DNA of 64,000 bases from Pseudonocardiales bacterium (GTDB taxonomy: Bacteria > Actinomycetota > Actinomycetes > Mycobacteriales > Pseudonocardiaceae): contig JAFAWY010000050.1 in the NCBI GenBank assembly GCA_019241525.1, positions 1 through 64,000 of the forward strand, given 5' to 3'. Both the position numbers and the translations under genes were made by a program. The notes below the pieces were generated by a model. The model did no database searches. It worked only from the letters and a program-made list of their open reading frames with translations, and was not told where the DNA came from. Of this stretch, positions 1,074-30,289 are shown piece by piece. Every line of letters begins with the position of its first letter. The first letter of the stretch is position 1.

Positions 1074-1286
1074 CTAACCGATGTCTCGATGCTTCTTGTG
1101 CACTGCCTGCCGGGTGACCCCGAGCACGTCTGCGATCTCCTGCCAGGACCAACCGGATCGACGCGCGTTGGCGACCTGCAGCGTCTCCAAACGATCGGCC
1201 AGATCCCGTAACGCGCGCACCGAACGCAGGCCCATTTCCGGGTCGGAGTTGGTCGCTTGGTCCGCCAGCGCCCCGTGTTCCGCCAT
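1074..1286 (-). CDS. Small HTH DNA-binding protein, partner of Clp-N protein
   Basis: A 70-residue protein starting MAEHGALADQ. The C-terminal half (WSWQEIADVLGVTRQAVHKK, about residues 45-64) is a clear helix-turn-helix with the recognition helix near the end. An in-frame upstream start at 1343 would add 19 residues that cover the operator, so I prefer ATG 1286, which sits 7 nt after a TAAGTT box and could be leaderless. It is first in a two-gene operon with the Clp-N protein. It probably binds the palindrome just upstream and represses itself (inference). Confidence 0.75.
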   Translation of the reverse strand: MAEHGALADQATNSDPEMGLRSVRALRDLADRLETLQVANARRSGWSWQEIADVLGVTRQAVHKKHRDIG

Positions 1287-1293
1287 GGCAGGC

Positions 1294-1330
1294 AACTTAG
1301 GTTGACAAGCGCATGTTGTCAACCTAAGTT
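1294..1330. promoter_or_regulatory. Symmetrical divergent promoter/operator
   Basis: A perfect inverted repeat: AACTTAGGTTGACAA (1294-1308), 7-nt spacer, TTGTCAACCTAAGTT (1316-1330). On each strand this gives TTGACA, 17 nt, TAAGTT, an ideal sigma70-type promoter in both directions. On the minus strand the -10 is 7 nt from ATG 1286. TGTCAAC-CTAA-GTTGACA (1317-1334) is itself a shorter palindrome, repeated imperfectly on the left side. Confidence 0.8.
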
Positions 1331-1360
1331 GACATTTAGTCATCGTCAGGCGATTACGTT

Positions 1361-1978
1361 GTGGGGTTGCCGAACCAAACCGGAGCGATCCCAGGACCGC
1401 GGCCCAGGCCGACTCCGCCCGACTGTCCGGCTGAGAGCCACCGGGAGAAACCAGCGAGCATCGCGGGGACGGACTGGCCAGGAGGTGCGTTTCCGCGAGA
1501 CGCTGTTTCGGTGCATGACAAGCCGTGGGCTCGTGCCCGCCTAGCGTCGTTACGTCCTGGCAAGGGTGACCGTAGCGGGCGGGCCATCCGCAGCCACGGT
1601 ATCCGCGTTAGCTCGACCGCCGACAGTGCCGAAGCAAGGGAGTCGGTGGCCGTGGCCGGCAGTGTCGCCGTGGCCGGCAGCGCGGCTACAGCAGGCAGTG
1701 TCGCGGTGGCCGGCAGCGTCGCCGTGGCCGGCAGCGCGGCCACGGCAGGTAGTGTCGCGGTGGCCGGCAGCGTGGCCACCGCGGGCAGCGTCGGGGTTGT
1801 GGGCAGCGTCGCAACCATGTTCAGCGCTGGCATCAGAGCGTGCATCGGATGTTTGGCATGCGTCGGCTGCTGCCGGTGCGTGGGTTGCATCGGCTGCATT
1901 GACTGCGTGGACTGCATCGGCTGTATCGGCTGCGTTGGACTGCGGGGCGCCGTGGGCCAACGCGGTACGCGGGCCTGA
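1361..1978 (+). CDS. Possible repeat-bearing protein (doubtful)
   Basis: An open frame of 205 codons starting GTG 1361, about 25 nt after the plus-strand half of the symmetrical promoter. It carries the V-A-G-S-V-A hexapeptide array (about residues 98-151), which fits the left-handed beta-helix hexapeptide pattern, then the Cys-Ile-Gly tail. No ribosome binding site precedes it. Alternatives are a minus-strand gene or no gene at all. Confidence 0.2.
   Translation: MGLPNQTGAIPGPRPRPTPPDCPAESHREKPASIAGTDWPGGAFPRDAVSVHDKPWARARLASLRPGKGDRSGRAIRSHGIRVSSTADSAEARESVAVAGSVAVAGSAATAGSVAVAGSVAVAGSAATAGSVAVAGSVATAGSVGVVGSVATMFSAGIRACIGCLACVGCCRCVGCIGCIDCVDCIGCIGCVGLRGAVGQRGTRA
1652..1813. repeat. Nine 18-bp tandem units in a 54-bp higher-order pattern
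   Basis: Nine degenerate 18-bp units (GTGGCCGGCAGYGTCGCC type) run without interruption; units 1-3 and 4-6 repeat as 54-bp blocks. The tract is open in several frames because 18 is a multiple of three. On the plus strand (GTG 1361 to stop 1978) it reads V-A-G-S-V-A hexapeptides with high GC at third positions. On the minus strand, frames from 1981 and 2103 read A-A-G-H-x-D and A-T-L-P-A-T. I cannot decide which frame, if any, is translated. Confidence 0.8.
1841..1939. repeat. 9-bp tandem repeat (C-[IV]-[GD] codons on plus strand)
   Basis: In the same open plus-strand frame as the 18-bp array, degenerate 9-bp units of the type TGCATCGGC give a Cys-Ile-Gly-like tripeptide repeat. On the minus strand the same bases read Q-P-M/Q-P-T or A-A-D triplets. 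The Cys-rich reading is unusual for an actinobacterial protein, which is why I do not call a gene. Confidence 0.6.
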
Positions 1979-3638: not shown

Positions 3639-4063
3639 TCAGCGGCACAGCTTCGGCCGCAACCACGACTTGGCCACGCAGGCCGGCACGGCGGCGGCCG
3701 GGGTCACACGCTGGGCCGCCCTGTACACACTCGGGCTTTGGCCGACCAGCTCGGTGAAACGCGCGCTGAACGAGCCAAGCGAGGATGCGCCGACCGCCAG
3801 GCACACCTCCGTTACCGTCAAGTCGCCGCGACGCAGCAGCGCCATTGCCCGCTCGATGCGCCGGGTCATCAGATAGGTGTAGGCGTTTCGCCGTAGGCCA
3901 AGCGGAACCGGCGGGTAAAGTGCGACGGTGACATAAAGGCGGCGTGTGCCATCGTCGGCACGTCTAACGGCACGGCATACCAGCGGTCCATCAGGTCCCG
4001 TGCCCGCCGCAAGCGGACTAGCTCCTTTTGGTTCAACCGTTCTCGGTTCACGATGCGGAGCAT
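3639..4063 (-). pseudogene. AraC-family regulator, broken by a frameshift
   Basis: Reading from ATG 4063 (preceded by AAGGGG) gives LVRLRRARDLMDRWYAVPLD, then MSPSHFTRRFRLAYGETP, the first AraC helix-turn-helix. The frame then runs into a stop at 3869. The second half (YTYLMTRRIERAMALLRRGD, then VCLAVGASSLGSFSARFTEL and VYR) continues one frame over to 3639. A single missing base near 3885-3890 (GAAACGCCTACACC, where family alignment predicts one more C) explains it. Restored, the protein would be about 141 residues, normal for this short AraC class. It either recently died or carries an assembly error. It would have regulated the VOC gene (inference). Confidence 0.8.
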
Positions 4064-4222
4064 TCCAACAACCCCTTGCTCGTGCCACCTGTATAGCCGA
4101 GTCCGCCCTGACCAAACATCCGGGTCCACTAATGAGCGACCGAGCTGCACCAGGTCCGGATGGTCAGCACCGATAATGTCTACCGCGATGACTTTCCTGA
4201 TGCCTGCTCCGCCAAACTGACT

Positions 4223-4721
4223 ATGCGCGCTGATTGGGATCTGAGCGGCGCACATGCCATCTCTGCGGAATGCGATGTCGCTGTCATTGTCGATGTGCTC
4301 AGCTCCACCACGACCCTGACTGTCGCGGCCGACCGTGGCGATGCAGCCAGAGCTGCGCGTTGCAGTTATCGCCGCCGGTGAACGCTGGCCAGAGGGAAAC
4401 CTTCGACCGGCAGTCGAAGATCAATGGGGTGCGGGCAGCGTCCTCCAGCTTCTTCGCGCTGACGGATGGTCGGCCATCTCCCCCGAAGCGAACACGGTGG
4501 CCGACACCTTTTGCGCTGTTGCCAGAGATCTGGCTACGGCTCTATACGACTGCGCAAGGGGCCGCGAACTGATCAGCATCGGTTATGTCGACGATGTGGA
4601 AACAGCCACCCAACTCGACAGCAGCTCAGTCGTCCCTCGCCTCCAGCATGGCGCATTCACATCCACTCTCTATAGATGTGGCATCCCCGACTGTCGGATA
4701 CTGCGGTTACTGGTTTGGTAG
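4223..4721 (+). pseudogene. comB: 2-phosphosulfolactate phosphatase-like (ComB) remnant
   Basis: From ATG 4223 the N-terminus ECDVAVIVDVLSSTTTLTVA is the ComB family start. After about 40 residues the frame is lost, and the C-terminal third resumes in another frame from about 4347 (VAVIAAGERWPEGNLRPAVE, WGAGSVL, then GRELISIGYVDDVETATQLD) to the stop at 4721. Compared with the usual length of about 230 residues, some 70-80 middle residues are missing. The internal deletion plus frame change make it non-functional. It sits beside the broken AraC gene, so this block is decaying. Confidence 0.75.
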
Positions 4722-25537: not shown

Positions 25538-25573
25538 TGTATGAGTCGCGGAATGTTCGCCGCGACTCATACA
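25538..25573. repeat. Perfect 14-bp inverted repeat between egtD and DinB gene
   Basis: TGTATGAGTCGCGG (25538-25551) and its exact complement CCGCGACTCATACA (25560-25573) flank an 8-nt loop. It is 111 nt past the egtD stop and 34 nt before the DinB start. No T-run follows on the minus strand, so a regulatory hairpin or operator is as likely as a terminator. Confidence 0.7.
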
Positions 25574-30221: not shown

Positions 30222-30289
30222 GTGTCGCGCTCTCGTGCCTGGTGTGTCGGGCCACGTGGCCCGACACACCAGGCACGAGAGCGCGACAC
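30222..30289. repeat. 68-bp perfect palindrome
   Basis: Two exactly complementary 34-bp arms (30222-30255 and 30256-30289) meet with no spacer at CCAC/GTGG. The arm begins GTGTCGCGCTCTCGTGCCTG and continues GTGTGTCGGGCCAC. It begins 7 nt past the stop of the ABC exporter gene and about 110 nt upstream of egtA. There is no T-run, so it is not a standard intrinsic terminator. Confidence 0.9.

Follow-up and report, generated by a model that had tools for sequence, protein, structure and literature searches.

A putative double operator in front of a split, two-gene relative of ClpC2 in a Pseudonocardiales bacterium

The locus

The window analysed here is a stretch of 64,000 nucleotides from a Pseudonocardiales bacterium (GCA_019241525.1, contig JAFAWY010000050.1, positions 1 to 64,000). 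Near its beginning, a gene for a small helix-turn-helix (HTH) protein and a gene for a Clp_N protein follow each other on the minus strand, and a gene with amino acid repeats lies on the plus strand (Table 1). Between them is a palindrome. Positions 1294-1308 are the exact reverse complement of 1316-1330, and one further pair (1293/1331) extends this to a perfect inverted repeat with 16-bp arms (1293-1308 and 1316-1331) and a 7-nt loop. The real window has arms of at least 12 bp at three places, this repeat counted, and inverted repeats with arms of 12, 13 or 15 bp (loop of at most 10 nt) were found in none of 8 dinucleotide shuffles of the window per arm length. The sequence TGTCAACNTANGTTGACA occurs at a single place in the 4.7-Mb genome, as seen in a search with an 18-mer pattern. 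Elsewhere in the window, a loop-free, perfect palindrome of 68 bp (34-bp arms, 30222-30289) is either a strong hairpin or an assembly artefact, and another inverted repeat with perfect 14-bp arms and an 8-nt loop is found at 25538-25573.

An earlier note on this DNA had described a 15-bp inverted repeat with TTGACA-17-TAAGTT on both strands, a -10 inside the palindrome and a distance of 7 nt to the HTH start, and the sequence agrees with all of this. The inverted repeat is better described as two consecutive putative operators, TGTCAAC-n4-GTTGACA, that are 27 bp apart, and the promoter-like element predicted inside them is of the sigma-70 type.

Table 1. Positions of the genes and of the predicted promoter and operator elements in the window.
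Feature	Position	Strand	Remarks
Distal operator TGTCAACTTAGGTTGACA	1317..1334	-	The -35 forms its right arm; 104 of 105 distinct loci have an equivalent site
Proximal operator TGTCAACCTAAGTTGCCT	1290..1307	-	Right (last) arm degenerate, imperfect; contains the -10
-35 TTGACA, HTH promoter	1317..1322	-	TTGACA/G/T in 103 of 104 loci
-10 TAAGTT, HTH promoter	1294..1299	-	17-nt spacer; 7 nt (1293-1287) to the ATG at 1286; leaderless layout
-35-like TTGACA, opposite strand	1302..1307	+	By-product of the palindrome
-10-like TAAGTT, opposite strand	1325..1330	+	17 nt from TTGACA; rare in relatives (5 of 104)
Predicted repressor (70-aa HTH protein)	1074..1286	-	Modelled recognition helix at residues 59-69
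Clp_N protein, 177 aa	524..1057	-	Second gene of the pair; starts 16 nt past the HTH stop
Separate repeat gene	1646..1978	+	Gly-Ser-Val six-residue repeats, then Cys-rich tail; probably not driven by the palindrome

Conservation of the operators

Related loci were collected in two samples, both retrieved by similarity to the HTH protein and not by the operator. The first sample has 110 loci (30, and 80 from a scan of named genomes), of which five are duplicates, leaving 105 distinct ones. The second consists of the 30 best loci from 298 genomes of the order and overlaps slightly with the first. Both are confined to the best HTH matches. A site was accepted when at least 10 of 12 letters matched. 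The check that the earlier note had proposed, a search for the palindrome upstream of other HTH/Clp-N pairs, came out strongly positive, with two GTCAAC-n4-GTTGAC sites in 104 of the 105 distinct loci and in 30 of 30 loci of the second sample. In the 104 loci the sites are spaced by 27 bp (50 loci), 28 bp (48) or 29 bp (6). One locus, L072, has no operator site in the stretch fetched for it, and this counts against the explanation that is favoured below. As a background value, of 20,000 stretches of 122 nt drawn at random from the fetched loci, true sites included, 327 have at least two sites. The left arm of the distal site is upstream of the -35 and thus outside the HTH promoter; it reads GTCA in 104 of 104 loci, followed by an A in 101 of them, a conservation that is partly there by construction because the sites were chosen at 10 of 12 letters.

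At the level of whole genomes, the operator pattern is found in 81 of 120 genomes of the family, mostly exactly twice (no copy in 39, one in 22, two in 51, three in 5 and four in 3), and the reversed control pattern in 3. Four fused ClpC2 genes from the same genus code for an HTH similar to that of the window and have double GTCAA-n7-TTGAC sites at the ATG.

Distribution of the split pair

Matches to the HTH protein are found in 172 of 200 genomes of the family at E <= 1e-3, a loose threshold that includes fused ClpC2 and perhaps other HTH genes, and related HTH proteins in 179 of 298 genomes of the order at E <= 1e-12. In the named-genome scan the best 80 of 543 loci were kept, and these come from Streptomyces, Kitasatospora, Actinomadura, Actinoplanes, Promicromonospora, Cellulosimicrobium, Geodermatophilus, Nocardioides, Prauserella, one Mycobacterium and others. 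In the first sample, 108 of the 110 loci have a Clp_N gene behind the HTH gene, or 103 of 105 once duplicates are removed; for the two misses, L037 and L115, just 89 bases are available past the HTH stop. In the second sample the figure is 29 of 30, and the one miss, L141, shows no Clp_N match in 1473 bases past the HTH. The gap between the two genes ranges from -8 to +136 nt and is -1 in 34 of 108 loci. The idea that a fused gene was split by a sequencing error was rejected, because the nearest relative, G007 (14-nt gap), and the other fetched loci show the same split.

By a crude rule, a third gene (a same-strand open reading frame of at least 100 aa close behind Clp_N) is present in 34 of 79 named loci. 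No downstream neighbour is common to all 79, and by eye some recur within a genus, as in Actinomadura and Kitasatospora.

HTH/Clp_N pairs were also found in a plasmid collection, in Rhodococcus fascians, Streptomyces collinus, Nonomuraea gerenzanensis and the gammaproteobacterium Agarilytica rhodophyticola. Both sites have the standard form in the Rhodococcus and Agarilytica pairs, and a diverged operator with GTTGC stands before those of Streptomyces collinus and Nonomuraea. On the Streptomyces collinus plasmid pSCO1 (L200, 2498-4861) the HTH gene with its diverged operator, the Clp_N gene, an ABC ATPase and an ABC permease stand in a row, an array that would be compatible with a role in detoxification. 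The Agarilytica plasmid (L201, 2423-3203) carries the pair with both operators and a strongly diverged Clp_N. Another Streptomyces plasmid codes for a 281-aa protein with a related HTH embedded in it (L199, 2054-2899); this stretch has no Clp_N match and no operator pair upstream. As judged from the loci sampled, the split two-gene form with a putative ClpC2-like operator is common across actinomycetes, including Streptomyces. No description of the split pair was found in the open-licence PMC literature, as far as titles and abstract openings go.

The two proteins and their relatives

The 177-aa protein scores 42.5 against Pfam Clp_N (cut-off 20.7), and the 70-aa protein is just above the cut-off for HTH_23 (25.3, cut-off 24.6). 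The structure model of the HTH protein has a mean pLDDT of 93, and helices 48-55 and 59-69 form the HTH. When a profile of 51 HTH rows is compared to solved structures, the best sequence match is the antitoxin RelI (9SDC, E 2.5e-5), and matches are also found to a mycobacteriophage immunity repressor (7R6R, E 1.3e-3) and to the N part of ClpC2 (8ADA, Rv2667, E 3.1e-3). As a single sequence, the HTH protein matches the ClpC2 N part weakly (E 0.23). Foldseek with the HTH model returned nothing at E <= 0.001 (best E 1.6), a second fold comparison of the whole model was weak (best Z 5.3), and 8ADA and 9SDC were absent among the matches listed in both. The kinship of the HTH protein with ClpC2 and RelI rests on sequence, and the absences from the fold searches do not speak against it. 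The model of a fused ClpC2 (mean pLDDT 70, residues 1-34 below 50) was left out of the comparisons. Phage records searched with the HTH protein gave no match.

Two details of the proteins also fit ClpC2. D31 and R42 of the HTH protein align without gaps with D46 and R57, the Asp-Arg bridge of the ClpC2 dimer (PMC10030653); R42 is invariant in the 51 rows. In the Clp_N protein, the ligand pocket positions F2, F80 and E89 of ClpC1 are occupied by F, F and E, and over 131 Clp_N rows (L031 and L130 among them are one locus) these residues are kept in 118, 118 and 103. By our own mapping the three positions are equivalent to F96, F172 and E181 of ClpC2. The link to ClpC2 had not been foreseen in the earlier note.

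Taylor et al. (2023, PMC10030653) report that ClpC2 represses its own promoter, which is predicted to be leaderless, through the operator clpC2o, CGTCAAC-n5-GTTGACG, often present in two copies over the -35 and the -10. In the same paper the autorepression is demonstrated by EMSA and reporter assays, and cyclomarin releases it. Three compounds are reported to bind the C domain of ClpC2, namely desoxycyclomarin, ilamycin E2 and an ecumicin analogue, and of these only desoxycyclomarin induces ClpC2 (PMC12913811). As the ecumicin and ilamycin analogues bind without inducing, capture of a ligand alone need not derepress.

A probable self-repressed gene pair

We consider it likely that the palindrome is the promoter-operator of a split two-gene relative of ClpC2, in which a dimer of the HTH protein represses the pair and the Clp_N protein is a ligand-binding sensor or sponge. 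By analogy with ClpC2, an HTH dimer would bind each operator and block RNA polymerase by hiding the -35 and the -10, so that the pair represses itself. The HTH protein, at 70 aa, offers limited space for a sensor. The likely sensor and sponge is therefore the Clp_N protein, with its ClpC1-type pocket. It would probably act as a co-repressor together with the HTH protein, both their contact and the ligand being our suggestion. Capture of a ClpC1-directed peptide, or of an unfolded or modified protein, would then free the operator and lead to more sponge. Both in the split pair and in fused ClpC2, it would be the HTH domain that reads GTCAAC. The earlier note had proposed a leaderless, self-repressing promoter-operator for the HTH/Clp-N pair; the two sites shared by nearly all loci support this, and the pair is very probably self-repressed. 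Counted against the whole explanation are L141 with its lack of a Clp_N, the weak single-sequence match between the HTH protein and ClpC2, the weak fold matches, the DNA binding that Taylor et al. place in the C domain, the analogues that bind ClpC2 without inducing it, and the fact that a covariation (below) goes back to no more than one or two origins.

HTH or Clp_N as the DNA reader

Taylor et al. assign the DNA binding of ClpC2 to its Clp_N-like C domain, at R185 and R189, because the R185A/R189A exchange weakens binding (PMC10030653). Carried over to the split pair, this would mean that the Clp_N protein itself binds the operator and that the HTH protein merely dimerises or assists. Among the 131 Clp_N rows, 117 do keep the Arg equivalent to R185, and the R189 position has R more often than any other residue (55 rows). 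However, ClpC1 has the first Arg as well, and the second position is also A (32) or D (14), and W in the window protein.

Further evidence comes from the operators. For a count of recognition helices and half-sites, 4 of 133 loci were dropped (L020, L094 and L105 have a degenerate site under the stricter rule given in the next section, L072 has none), leaving 129. Position 7 of the recognition helix is K in 120 loci (mostly VHKK), R in 8 (VHRK) and Q in 1. In the K loci, the four half-sites have A as base 6 in 119, 119, 119 and 117 of 120 cases. In the R loci, G takes its place at three half-sites (8, 7 and 7 of 8 loci; 22 of the 24 half-sites off the -35), and the half-site that doubles as the -35 keeps its A in 8 of 8. 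This retained A separates, as far as these loci tell, the reading of the operator from the needs of the promoter. The change from K to R is accompanied by a change from A to T at helix position 4 in 7 of 8 R loci, and the VHQK locus, L098, has the half-site GTCAAG. On the Clp_N tree the covariation of K/R with A/G has one or two origins; independence was tested and is not supported. On the Agarilytica plasmid, the standard operators are kept together with a Clp_N that barely matches the family profile (E 4e-4).

The covariation with the HTH recognition helix, one or two origins notwithstanding, argues against binding by Clp_N. So does the extent of the ClpC2 N-domain crystal, 8ADA, which covers residues 4-72 (PMC10030653): the counterpart of its last residue in the HTH protein of the window is residue 57, just before the modelled helix, and the recognition helix is thus out of view. 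The term helix-turn-helix is absent from the main text of PMC10030653. We regard direct binding by the Clp_N protein as unlikely, and favour the HTH protein as the DNA-reading part of the pair, which falls short of proof.

A toxin-antitoxin-like module was considered as well, with the HTH protein as a RelI-like antitoxin and autorepressor and the Clp_N protein as a growth inhibitor that interferes with ClpC1. The RelI antitoxin (Rv2664) is reported to resemble the HTH region of ClpC2 and is paired with a toxin in RelS-RelI (2026, PMC13284704). That RelI is the solved structure which the HTH profile matches best would fit such a module, as would the gap of -1 in part of the loci. It is nevertheless quite improbable, with the ligand pocket mostly kept in Clp_N, the PADLOC models of anti-phage defence systems giving no family for either protein at E <= 0.01, and ClpC2, the nearest studied relative, described as protecting rather than harming (PMC10030653).

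A promoter in one direction

The promoter of the window had been called fully symmetrical in the earlier note, with the suggestion that it may also drive the repeat-bearing frame on the other side. The symmetry holds for the window sequence and is rare in the relatives: 87 of 104 loci have a -10 towards the HTH gene (TAnnnT, 17-19 nt away from the -35), and 5 of 104 have one on the opposite strand (16-19 nt). The window is among four loci with both. Under a stricter rule for both samples (7 of 8 outer letters per site, which makes arm counts under it partly a matter of construction) the figures are 110 of 129 for the HTH direction and 6 of 129 for the opposite one. As a control, TAnnnT at the distal site in the HTH direction is found in 9 of 104 loci. 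The start codon, in each case the first one in frame, comes 5-7 nt past the -10 in 104 of 104 loci. In 88 of 104 loci a TAnnnT can be read on the opposite strand within the proximal site, whatever the distance to a -35, because TA is its own reverse complement. G007 has TAnnnT at neither place. The predicted symmetrical promoter is a peculiarity of this genome.

The repeat frame on the plus strand looks like a real gene. Compared to G007, it shows 2, 1 and 15 substitutions at codon positions 1, 2 and 3 in the part 1800-1978, and 31, 31 and 63 over the whole frame 1361-1978. Its conserved reading begins near 1646 (GTG, with ATG in G007), about 310 bp from the palindrome, and the stretch between them has frame-breaking indels and, in G007, a stop. 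Since the conserved part starts only after some 300 bp of this kind, it is unlikely that the gene is driven from the palindrome. The gene is found in 1 of 60 family genomes, namely that of the window. Matches occur in 14 of 394 genomes of the class at E <= 1e-6, the window's own counted, and one other genus of the order accounts for 11 of these. A symmetrical promoter that works in both directions, for the pair and for this gene, and for which the double TTGACA-17-TAAGTT and the codon constraint could be cited, is hardly credible given the rarity of the opposite -10, its lack in G007 and the broken stretch in front of the gene.

Further along on the minus strand is an AraC-type regulator (3639-4255), whose matches to Pfam HTH_18 and HTH_AraC lie in two frames that overlap. 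It has a one-base frameshift compared to G007, from decay or an assembly error.

Significance

Streptomyces and Nonomuraea species make ClpC1-directed peptides. ClpC1 is the target of several antitubercular peptides, and mycobacteria are reported to sense and soak up cyclomarin by means of ClpC2 (PMC10030653, PMC12913811). In the split form, the part that reads DNA and the part that binds a ligand would be separate by nature. This form predicts where ClpC2 touches the DNA, and it offers more than 100 native pairs of operator and HTH protein as test material. More tentatively, and with somewhat less than even confidence, it can be proposed that throughout the ClpC2 superfamily the DNA is read by the small HTH and not by Clp_N, and that many actinomycetes and at least one gammaproteobacterial plasmid use a two-subunit system in which the separate Clp_N is a detachable sensor and decoy for agents that hit ClpC1. 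If the HTH is the DNA reader of the superfamily, the published DNA-binding site of ClpC2 needs revision.

Comparison with known systems

The autorepression of fused ClpC2 is already known; the locus described here is a two-gene, split form with putative n4 operators. Shared with ClpC2 (Rv2667 and its M. smegmatis counterpart) are the GTCAAC/GTTGAC half-sites, the related N part with the residues of the D-R bridge, and the Phe/Phe/Glu pocket. Two operators overlapping the -35 and the -10 of a leaderless promoter are likewise common to both, known here from the layout of the DNA. ClpC2 is a single chain, whereas the pair is encoded by separate open reading frames with 16 nt between them. The operator has n5 in ClpC2, as in the four fused genes from the same genus, and n4 in the split pairs. 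The second conserved Arg of ClpC2, R189, is a Trp in the window protein, and a response to cyclomarin is known for ClpC2 only.

RelI, like the protein described here, is a small HTH protein related to the HTH of ClpC2 and paired with the next gene (PMC13284704). The partner is different: RelS is a RelE-like RNase toxin (RelE/BrnT-type), while here it is a Clp_N protein, as in nearly all of the distinct loci. The N-terminal domain of ClpC1 belongs to the same family as the Clp_N protein and has the same ligand-pocket residues, whereas the Clp_N protein of the window stands alone, with its 177 aa and without AAA+ modules.
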